This document shows, piece by piece, positions 44,826-53,907 of a stretch of DNA of 64,000 bases; the first letter of the stretch is position 1; each line of letters starts with the position of its first letter. The notes beneath the pieces are model-generated. The model did no database searches. It was not told where the DNA came from and saw nothing but the letters and a program-made list of their open reading frames with translations. The position numbers and the translations under genes are program-made. Source of the stretch: Herbidospora yilanensis (GTDB lineage: Bacteria > Actinomycetota > Actinomycetes > Streptosporangiales > Streptosporangiaceae). Location of the stretch: positions 62,001 through 126,000 of the forward strand of contig NZ_BBXE01000018.1 of assembly GCF_001570565.1 (NCBI RefSeq), read 5' to 3'.

Positions 44826-45581
44826 ATGACAGAAGCCGTCGGATCGACTTCTCTCGTCAGACTTGAGAACGTCAACAAGCACTTCGGCACCCTGCACGTG
44901 CTGAAGGACATCGACCTCGACATCGCGCGGGGCGAGGTCGTGGTCGCCATCGGCCCCTCCGGGGCCGGCAAGTCGACCCTCTGCCGGGTGATCAACCGGC
45001 TGGAGACGATCGACTCGGGCACCATCACCTTCGACGGCAAGAGCCTGGCCGTCGAGGGCCGCGCGCTGGCCCAGCTCCGCTCCGAGGTCGGCATGGTGTT
45101 CCAGTCGTTCAACCTCTTCGCCCACAAGACGATCCTCGAGAACGTCACCCTCGGGCCGATCAGGGTCCGCAAGATCGCGCGCGACCAGGCCGAGAAGCGC
45201 GGCATGGAGCTCCTGGAGCGGGTCGGCATCGCCTCGCAGGCGGAGAAGTACCCCGCCCAGCTCTCCGGCGGCCAGCAGCAGCGTGTGGCCATCGCCCGCG
45301 CCCTGGCCATGGACCCGAAGATGATCCTCTTCGACGAGCCCACCTCCGCGCTCGACCCCGAGATGGTCCAGGAGGTGCTCGACGTCATGATCTCGCTGGC
45401 CAGAGACGGCATGACCATGCTCGTCGTCACCCACGAGATGGGCTTCGCCCGCCGGGCCGCCAACCGGGTGGTCTTCATGGCCGACGGCGCCGTCGTCGAG
45501 CAGAACACCCCCGACGAATTCTTCACGAATCCGGGCACCGACCGTGCCCGCGATTTCCTCAGCAAGATCCTCACACACTGA
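44826..45581 (+). CDS. gluA: Glutamate ABC transporter ATP-binding protein
   Basis: 251 residues from ATG 44826 (a TTG nine bases upstream is also in frame). Walker A GPSGAGKST at 43-51, signature LSGGQQQRVA, Walker B MILFDEPT. It is close to the polar amino-acid importer ATPases GlnQ/GluA. No strong ribosome binding site is seen; a TATAGC box at 44801-44806 would give a leader of about 13 nt. First gene of a gluABCD operon that sits in this chromosomal position in other actinobacteria. Confidence 0.93.
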   Translation: MTEAVGSTSLVRLENVNKHFGTLHVLKDIDLDIARGEVVVAIGPSGAGKSTLCRVINRLETIDSGTITFDGKSLAVEGRALAQLRSEVGMVFQSFNLFAHKTILENVTLGPIRVRKIARDQAEKRGMELLERVGIASQAEKYPAQLSGGQQQRVAIARALAMDPKMILFDEPTSALDPEMVQEVLDVMISLARDGMTMLVVTHEMGFARRAANRVVFMADGAVVEQNTPDEFFTNPGTDRARDFLSKILTH

Positions 45582-45592
45582 AGGTGGCTGTC

Positions 45593-46402
45593 ATGCGTGT
45601 CCGTCGAATTGGTGCCCTCCTGATGACCGCCGCCGCGCTGGCGGCGTCCGTGACCGCGTGCAGCGGTGGCGACGACAAGTTCGTCATCGGCGTGAAGTTC
45701 GACCAGCCGGGTCTCGGCCTGAAGCAGACCGACGGTTCGGTGAAGGGTTTCGACGTCGACGTCGCCGCCTACATCGCCAAGGAACTCGGCTACACCCCTG
45801 AGCAGATCGAGTGGAAGGAGACCGTGTCGGCCAACCGCGAGCCCTTCATCCAGCAGGGCCAGGTCGACATGGTGGTGGCGACCTACTCGATCACCGACAA
45901 GCGCAAGGAGGTCATCTCCTTCGCCGGTCCCTATCTGATCACCGGTCAGGACATCCTGACCCGCGCCGACGACACCACGATCACCGGCCAGGACAGCCTG
46001 CAGACCAAGAAGGTCTGCGGCGCCCAGGGCTCCAGCTCCCCGGCCCGCCTGATCGAGAAGTTCGGCGAGGCCTGGAAGGGCCAGTACCTGACCGAGCAGC
46101 AGGGCTACGGCGCCTGCCTGCCGCTGCTGGAGCAGGGCCAGGTCGACGCGATCTCCACCGACGCCACCATCCTGGCCGGCTTCGCCGCCCAGAGCCCCGG
46201 CAAGTTCCGCCTCGTCGGGCAGGTCTTCTCCGAGGAGAAGTACGGCGTCGGCCTCAAGAAGGACGACAAGGAGACCCGCGACAAGGTCAACGCGGCCATC
46301 GAGAAGATGTTCTCCGACGGCTCGTGGAAGAAGGCCGTGGACGCGAACTTCGGCGAGTTCGCCCCCAACTTCGCGACCCCGCCGGCCCTGGAGAAGTACT
46401 GA
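45593..46402 (+). CDS. gluB: Glutamate-binding lipoprotein
   Basis: 269 residues from ATG 45593 (GGTGG upstream). Signal peptide and lipobox ASVTACSGG. Type-II amino-acid binding fold: KFVIGVKFDQPGLGLKQTDG, GFDVDVAAYIAKELGY, and VATYSITDKRKEVISFAGPY, whose arginine usually holds the ligand alpha-carboxylate. It delivers glutamate to GluCD. A strong hairpin follows before gluC. Confidence 0.94.
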   Translation: MRVRRIGALLMTAAALAASVTACSGGDDKFVIGVKFDQPGLGLKQTDGSVKGFDVDVAAYIAKELGYTPEQIEWKETVSANREPFIQQGQVDMVVATYSITDKRKEVISFAGPYLITGQDILTRADDTTITGQDSLQTKKVCGAQGSSSPARLIEKFGEAWKGQYLTEQQGYGACLPLLEQGQVDAISTDATILAGFAAQSPGKFRLVGQVFSEEKYGVGLKKDDKETRDKVNAAIEKMFSDGSWKKAVDANFGEFAPNFATPPALEKY

Positions 46403-46415
46403 TCTGACCGGCTCC

Positions 46416-46439
46416 CGGCCCTCCCCCAGGGGAGGGCCG
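46416..46439 (+). terminator. Hairpin between gluB and gluC
   Basis: Arms CGGCCCTCCCC and GGGGAGGGCCG pair over up to 11 bp around CA, followed by TTCTC. Placed 14 bp after the gluB stop and 20 bp before gluC. Likely a partial terminator or mRNA-stabilising structure that lets the binding protein be made in excess over the permeases. Confidence 0.65.
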
Positions 46440-46459
46440 TTCTCATGGGGAGGTAGGGC

Positions 46460-47128
46460 GTGGGCGCCCTCGTCGAAGAGTTCCCGGTCATCCTGGGCGC
46501 GTTCTGGCTGACCATACGGCTCACGCTGGCCAGCGCCGCGGCGGCGCTGGTGCTGGGCACCGTCCTGGCCGCCATGCGGGTCAGCCCGTTCGGCGTGCTG
46601 CGCGGGGTGGCCACGGTGTACGTCAACACGCTGCGGAACACGCCGCTGACCCTGGTGATCGTGTTCTGCGGGCTCGGCCTCGGGCTGGTGCTCGACGTGT
46701 CGTTCTCCGAGTCGCTGTCGACCAACTACCTGTGGTTGTCGATCATCGGGCTGTCGGCGTACACGGCCGCGTTCGTCTGCGAGGCGATCAGGTCGGGCAT
46801 CAACACCGTGCCCGTCGGGCAGGCCGAAGCGGCGCGGGCGCTCGGGCTGACGTTCACCCAGAACCTGCGGTTCATCGTGTTGCCGCAGGCGTTCCGGGCG
46901 ATCATCGCGCCGCTCGGCAGCCTGCTGATCGCACTGACGAAGAACACCACGGTCGCCGCCGCGATCGGCGTGGCCGAGGCGTCGCTGACGATGAAGTCGC
47001 TGTTCGAGCGGCACCAGGACTCGGTGGTCGCGATCTTCTTCGGGTTCGCGCTGGCCTTCCTCGTGCTCACCCTCCCCACCGGCCTGTTCTTCGGCTGGCT
47101 GTCCCGACGGCTGAAGGTGGTCCGATGA
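46460..47128 (+). CDS. gluC: Glutamate ABC transporter permease
   Basis: 222 residues from GTG with GGGGAGGTAGGG upstream. HisM/GlnP-type membrane protein: FWLTIRLTLASAAAALVLGTVLA, NTLRNTPLTLVIVFCGLGLGL, and the ATPase contact loop EAARALGLTFTQNLRFIVLPQAFRAIIAPLG split across the EAA motif. The stop overlaps the gluD start (ATGA). Confidence 0.94.
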   Translation: MGALVEEFPVILGAFWLTIRLTLASAAAALVLGTVLAAMRVSPFGVLRGVATVYVNTLRNTPLTLVIVFCGLGLGLVLDVSFSESLSTNYLWLSIIGLSAYTAAFVCEAIRSGINTVPVGQAEAARALGLTFTQNLRFIVLPQAFRAIIAPLGSLLIALTKNTTVAAAIGVAEASLTMKSLFERHQDSVVAIFFGFALAFLVLTLPTGLFFGWLSRRLKVVR

Positions 47129-47979
47129 GCACCGTCCTGTACGACACCCCCGGCCCGCGCGGCATCCTGCGCAACCGGATCCTGACGTTCGTCTTCGCCG
47201 CCGCGCTGCTGGCCGGGCTCTACTTCGCCTACCTGAAGTTCGACGAGAAGGGCCAGTTCGACCCGGCCCTGTGGGAGCCGTTCCTCCAGGGCGACGTGTG
47301 GGTGAACCTGATCATCCCGGGCCTGCTGAACACCCTGTCGGCCGCCGCCGTGGCCGCGCTGATCGCGGTGCCGTTCGGGTTCGTGTTCGGCATCGCCCGG
47401 TTGTCGGAGCACAAGTGGATCAGGGTGCCCGCCGGGGCGGTCGTGGAGTTCTTCCGCGCCATCCCGCTGCTCATCATGATCTTCTTCGCCCAGTACGGCG
47501 GCTCGGCCGTGCTCGGGCTCACCGTGACCTCCTTCACTGCCGTCGTGTTCGGGCTGGTGCTCTACAACGGCTCGGTGCTGGCCGAGATCGTCCGGGCCGG
47601 GATCCAGTCGCTGCCGCGCGGCCAGACCGAGGCCGCGCTGGCCGTCGGGCTGCGCAAGGGGCAGGTCATGCGGCTGATCCTGCTGCCGCAGGCGGTGACC
47701 GCGATGATGCCGGCCATCGTCAGCCAGCTCATCGTGCTGCTCAAGGACACCGCGCTCGGGTTCATCGTGGCGTTCGAGGACCTGCTGAACGCGGGCGCCC
47801 GCATCCTGCCCGCCAACTTCCGCAACCTGATCCCGGCGGTGATCGTCGTCGCGATCATCTACATCATCATCAACGTCCTGGTCGGGCTGCTCGCCAACTG
47901 GCTGGAACGCCGCTCCCGCCGCAGCCGCAAGACCACGGTCAAGCCCGTCGAGGCCCCCCAGTCGGTCGGCGTTGGGTAG
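47125..47979 (+). CDS. gluD: Glutamate ABC transporter permease
   Basis: 284 residues; ATG overlaps the gluC stop. An extra N-terminal helix (LTFVFAAALLAGLYFAYLKF) precedes the permease core, as in GluD. The EAA loop reads TEAALAVGLRKGQVMRLILLPQAVTAMMP. The C-terminus is basic (ERRSRRSRKTTVK). Forms the heterodimeric channel with GluC. Confidence 0.94.
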   Translation: MSTVLYDTPGPRGILRNRILTFVFAAALLAGLYFAYLKFDEKGQFDPALWEPFLQGDVWVNLIIPGLLNTLSAAAVAALIAVPFGFVFGIARLSEHKWIRVPAGAVVEFFRAIPLLIMIFFAQYGGSAVLGLTVTSFTAVVFGLVLYNGSVLAEIVRAGIQSLPRGQTEAALAVGLRKGQVMRLILLPQAVTAMMPAIVSQLIVLLKDTALGFIVAFEDLLNAGARILPANFRNLIPAVIVVAIIYIIINVLVGLLANWLERRSRRSRKTTVKPVEAPQSVGVG

Positions 47980-47987
47980 GCCTTTAC

Positions 47988-48767
47988 GTGTCGGTTCGCC
48001 GAGATCGGCGATCAAGATCTGATCCTGATCGGGTGTGGCGCGTCGTCTCCGCGGGTATCGCGGCCCTCTCGATCGCGGCCGGGCTCACGGGCTGTTCGGG
48101 CACCGGCCTCCTGATCGGCGTCCGTGCGGGCCAGCCCGGCCTGGCCGAGACGCTGCCCGGCGGCGGCTGGTCCGGTTTCGACATCGCCGTGGCCCATTAC
48201 GTGGCCCGGCAGCTCGGCTACCGCAAGGACCAGATCCGGTACACCACCGACCTCGACTCGGCCGACCTGGTGATGGGGCCGGCGCGGGAGCCGTACGTCG
48301 GCCCCTACCTGGTCGCGGCCAAAGACATCCTGGTCCGGGCCCGCGACCGCGACCGGTCGCTGAAGGAGCTGGCCGGGGGGCTCGTGTGCGGCACCCGGGC
48401 CGACACCCTGGGCCTGGCCGGCCGGTTCGGCGCCGAATGGCGGGCCGCCCACCTGGCCGAGGCCAACGTGCCCGCGGCGTGCGGGCCGCTGCTGGCCGAC
48501 CGGCGCACCGACGCCATCATCGCCGACGCGCCCGTGCTGGCCGGCCTCTCGGCCCAGTACCCCGGCCGGTTCCGGCTGGTCGGACGGCCTCTCGCGCAGG
48601 AACGGTACGGGATCGGCCTGTCGGAGCGGACCGAGTCGTGGCGCGACGAGATCGAGGACGCGCTGCGCCAGATGTACGACGACGGTTCGTGGCACCGGGC
48701 CGTCATCGACTACCTGGGCGAGCTCGCCACCCAATACGAGATGCCGCCGGCCCTGGAAAAGCGCTAA
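47988..48767 (+). CDS. Diverged GluB-like substrate-binding lipoprotein
   Basis: 259 residues from GTG 47988, eight bases after gluD with GGTAGG seven bases upstream (a GTG at 48033 is an alternative). Lipobox IAAGLTGCSG. It aligns with GluB along the whole length (GQPGLAETLPGGGWSGFDIAVAHYVARQLGY; FRLVGRPLAQERYGIGLSER; the end YEMPPALEKR matches GluB FATPPALEKY). The segment around the GluB ligand arginine is about 20 residues shorter (SADLVMGPAREPYVGPYLV). The ligand pocket is therefore remodelled: different ligand, or a regulatory non-transporting role. Confidence 0.85.
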   Translation: MSVRRDRRSRSDPDRVWRVVSAGIAALSIAAGLTGCSGTGLLIGVRAGQPGLAETLPGGGWSGFDIAVAHYVARQLGYRKDQIRYTTDLDSADLVMGPAREPYVGPYLVAAKDILVRARDRDRSLKELAGGLVCGTRADTLGLAGRFGAEWRAAHLAEANVPAACGPLLADRRTDAIIADAPVLAGLSAQYPGRFRLVGRPLAQERYGIGLSERTESWRDEIEDALRQMYDDGSWHRAVIDYLGELATQYEMPPALEKR

Positions 48768-48808: not shown

Positions 48809-50620
48809 ATGCTCCCCGAGCGCACGCCGTTGCCGTACGCCGCCCGCATATCCACCGCCGACGTGGCCCGGTCGGGCCTCAACCTCGGCTTCCCGACCGT
48901 GATCGGCGACGAGGTGTGGTGGGAGGAAGACCGGCCCGCCCAGAACGGCCGCCGGACCATCGTCCACCGCGCCGCCGACGGACGGCGGCGCGAGATCCTG
49001 CCCGCGCCCTGGGACGCGCGCACGCGGGTGCACGAATACGGCGGACGGTCCTATGTCGTCATCCCCGAACTCGGGGTCGTCTTCGCCGAACACTCCGACC
49101 AGCGGCTCTACCTCGTCTCCGACGGAACACCGCGAGCGGTCACCGACGAGGGCGACTGCCGTTACGCCGACCTCTCCTGGGCGCACGGGCGGATATTCGG
49201 CGTACAGGAACGCCACCACGACGACGGAAAGGTGGAGCGCGCCGTCGTGGCCGTCTCGCTCGACGGGTCGGTCTCGGTCATCGCGTCGGGGTCGGACTTC
49301 TACGCCTCCCCCGCGGTCTCCCCCGACGGGGAACACGTGGCCTACATCTGCTGGAACCACCCCCGCATGCCGTGGGTGGGCACCGAGTTGCGGATCACCC
49401 GCATCGACGACGGCTCGTCGTGGACGGTCAAGGGCGGGCAGGCCGAGTCGGTGCTCGCGCCGGCGTGGAAGGACGACCGCAACCTCTACCTGGTGTCCGA
49501 CTGGTCGGGCTGGTGGAACATCTACCAGATCGGCATGTTCGGCACCTCGCCCCGCGCCCTCTACCCCGCCGAGGAGGAGTTCGCGGGCCCGCTGTGGCAA
49601 CTCGGCGGACGGCCCTACGTGGTGCTCGGCGGCGACCGGCTCGGCGTGCTCCACGGGCAGGGCAACCTGCGGCTGGGGGTGCTCGACGTCGAGTCGGGCG
49701 TGCTGACCGACCTCGACGTGCCCTACGACGGCTTCCACCCGGAACTGTCGGCCGACGGCCGGACGCTGGTCGGCCTCGGCTACGGCTGGGACGTGCCCCG
49801 CTCGGTCGTCCGCGTCGACACGGTGACCGGCCGGGTCGAGGGCCTGCGCCGCGACATCGCCGAACTGCCCGACGTGGCCTGCCTCCCCCGCCCCTCGGAG
49901 GTGCTGATCGACCACCGGGTGCCCGCCTACCTCTACGCCCCGCTCGACGCGACCGGGCCGTCCCCGTTCGTGGTGTTCGCCCACGGCGGCCCCACCGCCC
50001 ACGTGACGACGGAGCTCAGCCTGGCACGGGCCTTCTTCACCACACGCGGCATCGGCGTGCTCGACGTGAACTACGGCGGCTCCACCGGCTACGGGCGCGC
50101 CTACCGCGAGAAACTGCGCGGCCGGTGGGGCGCGGTCGACGTCGACGACGTGATCGCCGCCGCCGAATGGCTCGCCTTCTCGGGCCACGCCGACCCCGAC
50201 CGCATCGCGATCCGCGGCGGCAGCGCCGGAGGCTGGACGGTCCTGGCGGCCTGCGCGGCCTCCGGCGTGTTCACCGGGGGCGTGTCGATCGCCGGCGTCA
50301 CCTCGCTCGGCCCGCTGCTGGAGGCCACCCACGACTTCGAGTCCCGGTACGCCGACTGGCTCGCCGGCCCCGACGGCCGGCGCCGCGAGCCGCTGGCCCG
50401 GGTCGGCGAGATCGACTGCCCCGTCCTGCTGCTGCAGGGGCAGAACGACCCGGTCGTGCCGCCGTCACAGGCCGAGACCTTCGTCGCGGCGCTCGCCGCC
50501 CGGGGTGTGCCATGTACCTACCTCGCCTTCGAGGGCGAGGCCCACGGGTTCCGCCGCATCGAGACCAAGACCGCCGCCCTCGCCGCCGAGCTCTCGTTCT
50601 ACCTGCAGATATTCGGCTAG
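48809..50620 (+). CDS. S9 family prolyl-oligopeptidase-like peptidase
   Basis: 603 residues from ATG 48809 (AGGA nine bases upstream). The N-terminal beta-propeller covers about 1-350 (YASPAVSPDGEHVAYICWNHPRMPW; VSDWSGWWNIYQIG). The C-terminal alpha/beta hydrolase has the nucleophile Ser in RGGSAGGWT (near 471), Asp in QNDPVVPPSQ and His in EGEAHGFRR. No signal peptide, so cytoplasmic: an acylaminoacyl- or dipeptidyl-peptidase. Its stop lies 12 bp from that of the convergent CqsA-like gene. Confidence 0.93.
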   Translation: MLPERTPLPYAARISTADVARSGLNLGFPTVIGDEVWWEEDRPAQNGRRTIVHRAADGRRREILPAPWDARTRVHEYGGRSYVVIPELGVVFAEHSDQRLYLVSDGTPRAVTDEGDCRYADLSWAHGRIFGVQERHHDDGKVERAVVAVSLDGSVSVIASGSDFYASPAVSPDGEHVAYICWNHPRMPWVGTELRITRIDDGSSWTVKGGQAESVLAPAWKDDRNLYLVSDWSGWWNIYQIGMFGTSPRALYPAEEEFAGPLWQLGGRPYVVLGGDRLGVLHGQGNLRLGVLDVESGVLTDLDVPYDGFHPELSADGRTLVGLGYGWDVPRSVVRVDTVTGRVEGLRRDIAELPDVACLPRPSEVLIDHRVPAYLYAPLDATGPSPFVVFAHGGPTAHVTTELSLARAFFTTRGIGVLDVNYGGSTGYGRAYREKLRGRWGAVDVDDVIAAAEWLAFSGHADPDRIAIRGGSAGGWTVLAACAASGVFTGGVSIAGVTSLGPLLEATHDFESRYADWLAGPDGRRREPLARVGEIDCPVLLLQGQNDPVVPPSQAETFVAALAARGVPCTYLAFEGEAHGFRRIETKTAALAAELSFYLQIFG

Positions 50621-50631
50621 CGGCCCGATGA

Positions 50632-51798
50632 TCAACGCCAGCGATCCCGCACGGACTCGCAGGCCGCGATGATCCGGTCGACGTCGTCGTCGCCGAGCCC
50701 CGCGTGCAGCGACAGCCTGACCAGCGCCCGGTCCCGGGGCGTCGCCGGCGGCGCGAACACCGCACCGAACACGCCGTGCTCCTCCAGCAGTTCGCGGACC
50801 TCGATGGTGGCCCACTCCGTCCCGGTCTGGAGCGCCACGATCTGGCTCACCGAGCCCTCCAGGTCGAAGCCGAGGGCCGCGACCTCGTCGCGCACCCACT
50901 CCGACACCTGGTGGAGCCGGTCGCGCCGCCACTCGTCGGCCCGCACGGCCTCCAGCGTCGCCGACAGGCCCGCCACGTCGTGCGCCGGCAGCGCCGAGGA
51001 GAACACCGCGGGGAAGGACTCCAGCCGGAAGTAGGGGACGAAGGCCGGGTCGGTGGCCGTGACGAACCCGGCCCGCCCGGCGAAGGCCTTGGAGAGGCTG
51101 GCGATCCGGAAGTGCACCCGGTGGGCCAGGCCGAGCTCGACGACCATTCCGGCGCCCAGCGGACCGGTCGTGCCGAGCGAGTGGGACTCGTCGACCACGA
51201 GCACGCACCCGGTCTCCTCGGCCAGGTCGCACATCTCCCTGAGGGGGCAGTGGCTCCCGTTCGTGCTGTAGAGGGCGTCGACCGCGATCACCCCGGGGCC
51301 GTGGCGGTCGGTCCGCGACCGCAGGTGGCCCAGGTCGTTGTGGCGGAACACGTGCAGCGGCGCGCCCGCCAGCCGCGCCCCGGCGGCGAGGGACATGTGG
51401 GCGATCTGGTCGACGTACACGGGGGTGTGCGCGTCGCTGATCGCCTGCAGGAGGCCGAGGTTCGCGTCCCATCCCGACTGGCACAACACCCCGGCGGGCG
51501 CGTGCATGTGGGCGGCCAGATCCCGTTCCAGGACGAGCTGGGGGTGGTCGCCGTGGACGTACACCCCCGACGCGAGTGTGCCGAGGCCGTCGGCCAGGCT
51601 GTCGGCGATGCTCTTGGCGACCCGATCGTCACCGGCCAGGGCCAGGTAGTCGTTGCTGTTGACCAGGACGTCACCCGCCTCCGGCGACCGTCCGAAGAAG
51701 AGTTCCCGGCCACCCCACTCCCCGGCCACCCTGGCCTCGTGGAACCGTTCGACCCGGGCCCGGACACGAGCGGCGGCGGGCGGGGAAGACGTGGTCAT
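50632..51798 (-). CDS. CqsA-like PLP-dependent alpha-aminoketone synthase
   Basis: 388 residues from ATG 51798. Fold-type I PLP enzyme of the alpha-oxoamine synthase family (relatives: BioF, Kbl, SPT). K237 in IASLSKAFAGRAG is the PLP lysine; D203 and H206 are in VVDESHSLGT. It resembles Vibrio CqsA far more than BioF: NSNDYLALA, LCQSGWDANLGLLQ, VYVDQIAHMSLAAGARLAGA, DRHGPGVIAVDALYST, LVVDESHSLGTTGPLGAGMV, ELLEEHGVFGAVFAPPAT, and the length is almost the same as CqsA (389). CqsA joins an acyl-CoA with S-adenosylmethionine to make the CAI-1 precursor. No bio genes or CqsS-type sensor are adjacent. Product unknown; the family call is firm, the signalling role is inference. Confidence 0.85.
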   Translation of the reverse strand: MTTSSPPAAARVRARVERFHEARVAGEWGGRELFFGRSPEAGDVLVNSNDYLALAGDDRVAKSIADSLADGLGTLASGVYVHGDHPQLVLERDLAAHMHAPAGVLCQSGWDANLGLLQAISDAHTPVYVDQIAHMSLAAGARLAGAPLHVFRHNDLGHLRSRTDRHGPGVIAVDALYSTNGSHCPLREMCDLAEETGCVLVVDESHSLGTTGPLGAGMVVELGLAHRVHFRIASLSKAFAGRAGFVTATDPAFVPYFRLESFPAVFSSALPAHDVAGLSATLEAVRADEWRRDRLHQVSEWVRDEVAALGFDLEGSVSQIVALQTGTEWATIEVRELLEEHGVFGAVFAPPATPRDRALVRLSLHAGLGDDDVDRIIAACESVRDRWR

Positions 51799-52266
51799 CG
51801 CACCAAGCTTTCTCTGAGCCGTAAAGTGATCTTTCAACAACACAGAGTGATACAACGCGACGGGTATCGAATGCCACCCGGAACGGGTCAAGATCGCCCC
51901 AGCAAGCGCGCCAGGCCTTCACGATCAGCGAGGTCACCGTGCCGGGTGGCTCATCATCGGCACGTGCGAGTTGTCGATCTCGACGATGAGGCCCCCGGCC
52001 ATGAGTGGTATCAGCCCGCTCATCGTCGGCCGGACGACTGAGGCGGCGAATCATGTGGTCTTCGTAGTCTTCCGGAGCCGGTCACGGCCACTCGGCTGGA
52101 TGGGTGGGCGAAGCCGTAATGGAAGAAAAGCCTTTCACCGGCGACGGCGAGAACGACGAGCGGCCGACGACCACAACGGCGAGTGGTTCTTCTCAGGCCG
52201 ACCGAGCCGACCTTACGACTCGCCCCCGGGCTCACTGGCGTGTGCTCGGCCGCACGCGGGGACGGG
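51799..52266. other. Long intergenic region between rny and the CqsA-like gene
   Basis: 468 bp without a supported gene. The part nearest the CqsA-like gene is less GC-rich than the surroundings and should contain its promoter; AGTGAT is repeated at 51825 and 51846, 21 bp or two helical turns apart. Small open frames here lack ribosome binding sites. No terminator was recognised after rny. Confidence 0.5.
51825..51851 (-). promoter_or_regulatory. Direct repeat AGTGAT in the CqsA-like gene leader
   Basis: Two AGTGAT copies start at 51825 and 51846, each followed after a few bases by CAAC. They lie 27-53 bp upstream of the ATG at 51798. The two-turn spacing suggests binding by a dimeric regulator, though six bases can recur by chance. 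Confidence 0.3.
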
Positions 52267-53907
52267 TCAGCGGGCGAACTCCGTCGCTCTCGACTCCCTG
52301 ACGACCGTGATGCGGATCTGGCCCGGGTAGGTCAGTTCCTCCTCGACCTGCTTGGCCACGTCACGGGCGATGACCTGGGCCTGGATGTCATCGACGTTGT
52401 CGGGCCGGACCATCACGCGGATCTCGCGGCCCGCCTGCATGGCGAAGACCTTCTCCACGCCCTCGTGCCCCTGGGCGATCTCCTCCAGGCGCTCCAGGCG
52501 CTTCACGTAGGCCTCCAGGCTCTCCCGCCGCGCCCCCGGGCGGCTGCCGCTGATCGCGTCGGCGGCCTGGGTGAGAACCGCTTCGACGGTACGCACCTCG
52601 ACCTCGTTGTGGTGGGCCTCGATGGCGTGGACGACGTCGTCGTGCTCGCCGTAGCGGCGGGCGATCTCGGCGCCGATCAGGGCATGGCTGCCCTCGACCT
52701 CGTGGGTGAGGGCCTTGCCGATGTCGTGGAGCAGCGCGCAGCGCTTGACGAGGTCGCGGTCGAGGCGCAGCTCGGAGGCCATGATGCCGGCGATGTGGGC
52801 CGACTCGATGAGGTGCTTGAGCACGTTCTGGCCGTAGGAGGTGCGGTAGCGCAACTGCCCGAGGAGGGTGATCAGCTCGGGGTGCATCTCGGTGATGCCG
52901 AGTTCGACGAGGGCGTCCTCACCGGCACGTACACACAGATCCCGGACCTCGGCGCGGCTGCGCTCGTAGGCCTCCTCGATGCGCTGCGGGTGGATGCGCC
53001 CGTCGAGGACCAGCTTCTCGAGTGTCAGCCGCGCGGTCTCGCGGCGCACCGGATCGAAACACGACAGCAGCACCGCCTCGGGGGTGTCGTCGATGATCAG
53101 GTTCACGCCGGTCGTCGACTCGAAGGCCCGGATGTTGCGGCCCTCGCGCCCGATGATGCGCCCCTTCATCTCGTCACCGGGCAGGTGCAGCACACTGACG
53201 ACCGACTCGGCCGTCTGCTCGGTGGCGACCCGCTGCACCGCCAGCGTCACGATCTTGCAAGCCCGCTTCTCGCCCTCCTTGCGGGCATCGCTCTCGATCT
53301 CGCGGACGATCAGCGCCGCCTCGCGCTTCGCCTGGTTCTCGATCTCCTTGACGAGCTCGCCCTTGGCCTGGTCGGCGGTCAGCCCGGCCAGCCGTTCGAG
53401 GATCTCCCGCCGCTGCTCCCCCAGCTTCTCGAGCTCGGCCCGCCGGTCGGCCAGGTCGGTCTCGCTCTCGGCCAGCCTCCCGGCCCGTTCGAGGTGCGCG
53501 CGCCCCTCTTCGTCGAGCCGCCGCTCCCGCTCCGCCAGCCGGCTTTCCCGCCGTTCGAGGTCGGCGCGCAGTTCCTTCAGCTCGTTCTTCAGGACGCGCG
53601 ACTCCTCCTCGACCTCCCGCCGCATCAGCGCCGCCCCTTCGACGAGCGCCTCGGACTTCCGGATGATCTCCCCGGCGTCGTTCTCGGCCTTGTCGCGGAT
53701 CTCCGCCGCCTCTTCGCGCGCCCTCTCCAGCTCCTTCTCCCGGAGGCTCTCGCTGAGCTCCAAGCGGATCTGGTCAAGCTGCTCCTGACTCGGACCGAGC
53801 TCTTTCGGGGCGGTACGCCGCAGCAAAATGATCAGGAGGGCCGCAATCGCCGCGAAGGCAAGCAGCAGCACCGCCACTGCCAGCACGATCACGATCGTCA
53901 TGTCCAT
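52267..53907 (-). CDS. rny: Ribonuclease Y
   Basis: 546 residues from ATG 53907 (AGGGG nine bases upstream; in-frame starts at 53913 and 53901 also exist). Endoribonuclease that starts mRNA decay at the membrane. One N-terminal helix (IVIVLAVAVLLLAFAAIAALLIILL), a long charged coiled coil to about residue 200, a KH domain (GDEMKGRIIGREGRNIRAFESTTGV) and an HD domain with the metal pair in LLHDIGKA near 390. Full family length with intact motifs. Confidence 0.95.
   Translation of the reverse strand: MDMTIVIVLAVAVLLLAFAAIAALLIILLRRTAPKELGPSQEQLDQIRLELSESLREKELERAREEAAEIRDKAENDAGEIIRKSEALVEGAALMRREVEEESRVLKNELKELRADLERRESRLAERERRLDEEGRAHLERAGRLAESETDLADRRAELEKLGEQRREILERLAGLTADQAKGELVKEIENQAKREAALIVREIESDARKEGEKRACKIVTLAVQRVATEQTAESVVSVLHLPGDEMKGRIIGREGRNIRAFESTTGVNLIIDDTPEAVLLSCFDPVRRETARLTLEKLVLDGRIHPQRIEEAYERSRAEVRDLCVRAGEDALVELGITEMHPELITLLGQLRYRTSYGQNVLKHLIESAHIAGIMASELRLDRDLVKRCALLHDIGKALTHEVEGSHALIGAEIARRYGEHDDVVHAIEAHHNEVEVRTVEAVLTQAADAISGSRPGARRESLEAYVKRLERLEEIAQGHEGVEKVFAMQAGREIRVMVRPDNVDDIQAQVIARDVAKQVEEELTYPGQIRITVVRESRATEFAR

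Follow-up and report, generated by a model that had tools for sequence, protein, structure and literature searches.

A CqsA-clade alpha-oxoamine synthase gene in Herbidospora yilanensis and its EF-hand-paired relatives in other actinobacterial loci

The characterised CqsA, LqsA and JqsA systems consist of a synthase and a linked sensor kinase and come from Gram-negative bacteria, as set out in the accessible part of Hornung et al. 2013 (PMC3566124). The same part describes synthase and sensor as invariably adjacent, with a figure that covers Gram-negative bacteria. For Janthinobacterium, the literature excerpts at hand report that deletion of jqsA strongly lowers violacein. Outside these systems, the accessible text of PMC7567580 counts 362 CqsA homologues in CPR genomes, 51 of them next to a CqsS-type sensor. 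Most are thus without an adjacent sensor, which counts against ‘always adjacent’ as a rule, at least on that portion of the source.

For actinobacteria, the words hydroxyketone, CqsA and CAI-1 do not occur in the main text of a 2016 quorum-sensing review (PMC4748050), and the accessible parts of PMC4821796, PMC3376566, PMC3285556, PMC7567580, PMC4748050, PMC3566124 and PMC10491745 describe no actinobacterial CqsA. Nothing was found in the literature searched on a Herbidospora autoinducer, a Nocardia LqsA or CqsA, or an Actinomadura autoinducer synthase. NCBI’s family model probably names such actinobacterial proteins in its annotation.

The gene studied here, cqsA1, lies in a stretch of 64,000 nucleotides of Herbidospora yilanensis (the window). 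The reading that we favour, and consider fairly probable, is that cqsA1 encodes a PLP-dependent alpha-oxoamine synthase of the CqsA/LqsA/JqsA clade, that its reaction and substrates would be those proposed by homology, and that the window copy belongs to a subclade without EF-hand pairing.

Identity of the cqsA1 protein and its surroundings

The features discussed are as follows; gene starts, and the labels of many neighbours, were obtained with a simple gene caller and by reading the sequences.

44826 to 48767, plus strand: glutamate-type ABC transporter genes (ATPase, two binding proteins, two permeases), context only; synteny in five Herbidospora
48809 to 50620, plus strand: S9 prolyl oligopeptidase gene, convergent; Pfam Peptidase_S9 and synteny
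50632 to 51798, minus strand: cqsA1, CqsA-clade alpha-oxoamine synthase, 388 aa; NF005526 score, tree, conserved start
51088 to 51090, minus strand: codon of Lys237, the PLP lysine; alignment to V. cholerae CqsA Lys236
51547 to 51585, minus strand: codons 72-84, active-site loop segment; kept in the window, shortened in five other Herbidospora orthologues
51906 to 51989, minus strand: 3' remnant of an alpha/beta-hydrolase gene; blastn and alignment
52267 to 53907, minus strand: rny (RNase Y), the upstream neighbour; Pfam RNase_Y_N, KH and HD, synteny in five loci

The original prediction had claimed a protein of 388 residues without giving its strand. The frame (50632-51798) is confirmed and lies on the minus strand, and the sequence upstream of its ATG, at 51798, is conserved in four of the five other Herbidospora. 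The NCBIfam model NF005526 (alpha-hydroxyketone-type quorum-sensing autoinducer synthase) scores 458.5 bits on the protein (cut-off 428, E 1.5e-137), and all 11 further models listed for it fall below their own cut-offs, among them TIGR00858 bioF with 221.4 bits against 426.45. A PDB search returns chains of V. cholerae CqsA as the top relatives (299 bits), the next family being serine palmitoyltransferase (131 bits). A likeness to CqsA through the whole chain had been predicted, and indeed all four quoted motifs are present and the PDB alignment spans residues 18-382. The NF005526 and PDB scores rule out a chance match. The predicted structure of the protein (mean pLDDT 60, from 14 sequences) was too poor for use.

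A tree of alpha-oxoamine synthases, as the original prediction had proposed, bears out the family assignment; a place inside BioF or Kbl, which that prediction had named as a refutation, is not obtained. In a 69-protein tree, 57 CqsA-like rows are split by a 100/100 branch from 12 reference enzymes (BioF, Kbl, ALAS, other relatives and the genome’s own bioF-like protein), which places the cqsA1 protein outside BioF, Kbl and ALAS in a set of rows without LqsA, JqsA or typical serine palmitoyltransferases. The same division of CqsA from BioF, Kbl and ALAS is obtained at 100/100 in a 48-row tree, and a quick 109-row tree agrees. The trees were built without L012, the fragment L019 and the duplicate loci L026-L030. 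The dividing branch measures 0.87 changes per column, and the programs gave long-branch warnings for the 69-, 109- and 48-row trees.

Model scores and trees together rule out a BioF or Kbl identity. More broadly, the common fold family and the 221 bits to TIGR00858 bioF might suggest that cqsA1 encodes a primary-metabolism enzyme: a BioF, a Kbl, a serine palmitoyltransferase or an ALAS. We regard this as highly improbable: the models of all these enzymes score under their own cut-offs, the 100/100 split separates the protein from BioF, Kbl and ALAS, and the genome has a separate bioF-like gene. This other gene scores 376 bits, itself under the TIGR00858 cut-off, and lies on another contig, two genes from a gene read from its sequence as bioD-like. 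The predicted lack of biotin genes near cqsA1 is thus correct; the gene is neither in a biotin locus nor the genome’s sole BioF-type gene. We hold the identity of the protein as a CqsA-clade synthase with high confidence.

At the residue level, the alignment shows that the cqsA1 protein retains His134, Asp203, His206, Lys237 and Arg361; His134, Asp203, His206 and Arg361 presumably have catalytic roles. Lys237, named as the PLP lysine in the original prediction, does align with the PLP lysine of V. cholerae CqsA, Lys236 (accessible part of PMC3376566). Seven columns are at least 95% fixed across 56 CqsA rows (a count made without L048) and absent from the 12 references; they include Ser234, Arg242 and Ala243 of the window protein. 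In V. cholerae CqsA numbering, all 12 references have Thr233 and Gly242, whereas nearly all CqsA rows have Ser and Ala, and Arg241 is found in CqsA rows and in none of the references. In a larger set of 97 clade rows, position 233 is Gly in five, L048 included. The claim that BioF and Kbl lack most of the CqsA sequence blocks therefore stands for these seven columns, which are CqsA-specific relative to the 12 references, and fails for the many catalytic positions that both sides have in common.

The acyl pocket is less telling. The available part of PMC3285556 gives the V. cholerae pocket as H30, V32, F79, F257, I263, F264, C346, P348 and A349. Three of these nine positions are identical in the cqsA1 protein (Phe264, Pro348, Ala349), Ile263 is conservatively replaced by Val, and H30, V32, F79, F257 and C346 differ. 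P348 occurs in all 12 references, and F264 and A349 in some of them. Since the three identities occur outside the CqsA clade, they say little, and the pocket does not decide for or against the Vibrio substrates. The acyl group used by the cqsA1 protein may, judging from these residues, differ from that of Vibrio.

By homology, PLP would be bound on Lys237 and an aldimine would form with the amino substrate (SAM in Vibrio CqsA). The substrate’s alpha-carbon would then be added to a fatty acyl-CoA, followed by decarboxylation, and an alpha-aminoketone or enaminone would be released, which can become an alpha-hydroxyketone. We have moderate confidence that the cqsA1 protein would carry out this SAM-plus-acyl-CoA reaction; a signalling role of its product is possible.

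As predicted, cqsA1 adjoins rny, identified by Pfam. On its other side, the end of the convergent S9 peptidase gene lies 11 bp from the end of cqsA1, and the context of cqsA1 is common to five Herbidospora loci. Both binding proteins of the transporter further along match a Nocardia SBP_bac_3 protein, the other transporter labels coming from sequence reading. The long upstream region in the original prediction is present and is accounted for by the remnant of the hydrolase gene. In the other five Herbidospora this gene is intact between rny and cqsA and encodes 263-267 aa with an N-terminus that reads as a signal peptide, Pfam giving Abhydrolase_6 for the L007 copy. Compared with L006, the matches of the window jump from the pre-hydrolase spacer to the last part of the hydrolase, with ~730 bp missing; thus the long upstream region of cqsA1 is a deletion relic. 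The relic and its upstream spacer together occupy window positions 51906-52183.

Relatives in actinobacteria and the pairing with EF-hand genes

The genome (7.85 Mb, 67 contigs) carries a second CqsA-type gene at C16:261205-262356, whose product is 51% identical to that of cqsA1 and scores 447 bits, over the NF005526 cut-off. The description ‘stand-alone’ is therefore right for cqsA1 itself and wrong for the genome. Within the genus, six of seven genomes match, three of them with both copies. At E<=1e-90 the family yields matches in 17 of its 250 genomes, 11 of which score over the cut-off, and in two of its 68 genera. With E<=1e-85 as the limit, 41 of the 65 genomes of genus g273 match, 20 of them over the cut-off (40 of the 41 matches were read, G663 being left out). 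In Nocardia, 39 of 150 genomes match and 22 exceed the cut-off. A class-wide sample of 394 genomes and 137 genera gave matches in six genomes and three genera, with five over the cut-off, and a phylum sample of 396, queried with the cqsA1 protein at E<=1e-80, the window genome only.

The genus g273 loci (L038-L048, L051-L074) have a divergent LPG_synthase_TM-type gene beside CqsA in 29 of 35 cases and a convergent MPAB_Lcp_cat-type gene in 21 of 35, labels for which one gene of each was tested with Pfam. We judged these pairings to be plain synteny within a genus and not a functional link.

The majority of actinobacterial rows form one branch (99/96 in the 69-row tree, 99/99 in the 48-row tree). 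In the 48-row tree, one side of it unites the window group with Nocardia (98/97), and the other unites the second Herbidospora copy with genus g273 (100/98). Outside it in the same tree fall L042, L052, L121 and L118, the first three being linked to a gene that reads as acyl carrier protein (ACP) and forming a separate branch (100/99). These three loci look like a small biosynthetic cluster.

The second copy of the window genome lies one base downstream of a same-strand gene whose product is an EF-hand protein of 180 aa (L021:9167-10916; own gene calls and Pfam), and its orthologues in G396 and G397 have the same arrangement. In another family, CqsA and a related EF-hand gene are transcribed divergently, 213 bp apart in G1139 and 241 bp apart in G1029. 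An EF-hand gene also lies 182 bp before the second CqsA copy of Nocardia transvalensis (G692); all three distances come from HMM bounds. The EF-hand-linked loci beyond Herbidospora are L119, L120 and L118/L142. Altogether, an EF-hand gene lies within 250 bp of CqsA in at least six of 92 distinct actinobacterial loci (the 97 clade rows less five proteobacterial ones), a lower bound because the flanks read differ, from ~0.2 kb to at least 10 kb per side. There is no EF-hand gene in the 64-kb window.

Four representatives of the EF-hand partners are 31-54% identical to each other. A profile built from them matches the calerythrin-type PDB entries 3aka (E 3.4e-24) and 1nya (E 5e-22); the partners differ from these calerythrin-type bacterial EF-hand proteins in adjoining a CqsA-type gene. 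Because the four are among the six neighbours, their top scores arise by construction, and it is their position and the number of other matches per genome that count. The profile has two matches in each of the window genome (G000), G396, G397 and G692, 12 in G1139 and one in G1029, and the other EF-hand matches per genome number 0 to 11 across ten genomes. G398 and G401, Herbidospora without the second copy, have a weak match only.

We compared four EF-linked neighbourhoods (L021, L122, L123, L142) and one ACP-linked neighbourhood (L124). Besides CqsA, only the EF-hand gene is common to all four EF-linked loci or to more than two of the five neighbourhoods, with the exception of a short-chain dehydrogenase-like gene (label by reading) that links three of them pairwise, L122 with L123 and L123 with L124. 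Two other neighbour matches join single pairs of the five.

The six EF-linked rows occupy three places in the tree: the Herbidospora second copy with g273, G1139 with G1029 (100/99), and G692 with the ACP-linked rows (98/98). A single clade of EF-linked rows was rejected (p-AU 6.07e-5), in an AU test that was not blind, the group having been picked after the linkage was seen. Since such genes are so few among what we estimate to be several thousand genes, chance adjacency in three lineages is unlikely. We take the CqsA/EF-hand pairing, on this comparative analysis, to be a putative functional unit; it is probably older than its losses, and it may be ancestral, have been gained more than once, or have moved between lineages. 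No such pairing was found in the literature searched.

Sensor search, selection and rival readings

The original prediction had placed the receptor elsewhere and suggested a search for CqsS/LqsS-like sensors; none was found in the window genome. The sensor profile was made of three sensor domains from Vibrio and Cupriavidus. The Cupriavidus sensor kinase adjoins its CqsA gene and aligns with Vibrio CqsS over both the sensor and the kinase parts. The profile finds its own Vibrio and Cupriavidus sources and, at 2.3e-33, a Tistrella sensor that is not part of it. With this three-row profile, no CqsS-type sensor domain is detected in the window genome at E<=1, nor, at E<=0.005, in 24 actinobacterial genomes (one of them without CqsA), where the best E is 0.0057. 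Weak matches (E 0.0057 to 0.59) occur in G687, G689, G396 and G399. A CqsS homologue in the window genome was likewise rejected from the 36 matches to the Cupriavidus sensor, all of which begin at residue 193 or later and cover the kinase part only.

Close to the synthase genes, there is no sensor domain in the 64-kb window, nor in the flanking DNA read at the actinobacterial loci, from ~0.2 kb at contig ends to at least 10 kb per side. On the Tistrella plasmid NC_017958.1 (L092), a CqsS-type sensor domain is found at 323652-324134, ~34 kb from the CqsA gene; linkage is thus not always immediate in proteobacteria either. A CqsA/CqsS system was therefore tested for in the window genome and not found, and any receptor must either belong to a different class or have diverged beyond the reach of these searches.

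Pairwise dN/dS of cqsA1 between the window and its five orthologues is 0.28-0.39, and over all 15 pairs 0.18-0.44 with a median of 0.342. The second copy gives 0.17-0.19 (three pairs). Medians of seven neighbour genes lie at 0.038-0.221 and that of an eighth at 0.328; among these neighbours, the hydrolase was compared in five genomes only. These values describe a protein that is constrained but fast-changing, and relative to the neighbours they fit relaxed constraint. The active-site loop kept in the window is shorter in the other five Herbidospora orthologues, by 8, 11, 11, 11 and 13 residues. Across the clade, the segment around pocket residue 79 has fewer than 24 residues in 23 of 97 rows, compared with 30 in V. 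cholerae. As the window copy nests with the orthologue that lost 8 residues (100/99, both trees), several separate losses are the simplest account. In V. cholerae numbering, His133 is missing in 6 of the 97 clade rows and His205 in two. The PLP lysine is missing in eight, replaced by Thr in five, Gly in two and Arg in one; seven of the eight are Nocardia. The eight rows are L013, L014, L020, L100, L106, L113, L114 and L161, apparently pseudo-enzymes kept as open frames. The window’s own subclade thus looks to be eroding in parts, although the window copy itself looks intact.

How far such erosion reaches bears on whether cqsA1 is a working enzyme at all. It might be a redundant, decaying gene or encode a non-catalytic protein, a state that some of its nearest relatives seem to have reached. 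The loop losses in the five orthologues point this way, as do the clade rows lacking Lys236 (8/97), His133 (6/97) or His205 (2/97), the dN/dS of cqsA1, high beside its neighbours, and the upstream hydrolase gene, deleted in the window genome alone of six. The window copy, however, retains the loop and the catalytic residues compared, its frame is open and its dN/dS is well under 1, and we think decay rather unlikely. A working enzyme might still serve to make a secondary-metabolite precursor rather than a signal. At L042, L052 and L121 the CqsA-like gene shares its strand with neighbours that read as acyl carrier protein and ketosynthase genes, and at one of these loci an Aminotran_3 gene is adjacent as well; moreover, the 24 genomes have no CqsS-type sensor. 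Those ACP-linked rows, however, are a separate branch (100/99), and neither the window copy nor its syntenic orthologues are flanked by biosynthetic genes; we find a precursor role for the window gene somewhat unlikely.

If the product is a true quorum signal, its receptor could be unlike CqsS, for instance a membrane adenylate cyclase or an amino-acid-binding lipoprotein. The window genome has four class III adenylate cyclases, one of which has ~8 hydropathy helices, although these were counted by a simple scan only. A mycobacterial cyclase with a CqsS anchor is reported to be ligand-regulated in the accessible part of PMC4821796. In five Nocardia (G687, G818, G836, G797, G751) an SBP_bac_3-matching gene follows CqsA directly on the same strand at 6-200 bp (Pfam for G687); the loci are L011:9215-10417, L101:2861-4078, L111, L113 and L114. 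This gene may encode a receptor, or it may stand there by chance. In G797 and G751, two of these Nocardia, however, both the PLP lysine and His205 are missing from the CqsA protein, and no candidate is linked to the window copy apart from binding proteins that are encoded on the opposite strand and belong to a complete transporter. We consider a true quorum signal read by a receptor of this sort improbable on balance.

A more novel reading, which we put forward as speculative and of low probability, is an actinomycete calcium-coupled alpha-aminoketone module. It would comprise a CqsA-type synthase and a calerythrin-like EF-hand partner. The partner would either act as a Ca2+ sensor that controls the enzyme or hold the hydrophobic product until Ca2+ triggers its release, and the resulting signal would be read without CqsS. 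The pairing would be old and would survive at the second Herbidospora copy, in one Nocardia and in another family; the window gene would be an offshoot whose partner has been lost.

Comparison with known systems

With BioF, Kbl and ALAS, the cqsA1 protein has in common the alpha-oxoamine synthase fold and most catalytic positions, and it differs in standing on the other side of the 100/100 branch. Vibrio CqsA (CAI-1 synthase, PDB 2wk8) is closer: fold family, PLP lysine, catalytic histidines, aspartate and arginine are common to both, and both belong to the same clade. Identity to the Vibrio plasmid copies is ~41%, with three of nine pocket residues identical. Vibrio has a CqsS gene, whereas the window genome has none beside cqsA1 and none detectable genome-wide.

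LqsA of Legionella and JqsA of Janthinobacterium are the same kind of synthase, a likeness drawn from the accessible parts of the papers rather than from sequence; there they are linked to sensor and regulator genes, unlike cqsA1. The CPR/DPANN homologues of PMC7567580, likened by description, are likewise sequence homologues outside the characterised systems, and the accessible part of that paper has no EF-hand pairing.

A branch of actinobacterial synthases without a detectable sensor means that alpha-aminoketones are read in some other way or that this chemistry serves a purpose other than signalling, and the EF-hand pairing offers a concrete, testable partner for the synthase. The actinobacterial proteins are thus set apart from the characterised CqsA systems by having no detectable CqsS-type sensor, by a window subclade that looks eroding, and by the pairing with an EF-hand gene at some loci.
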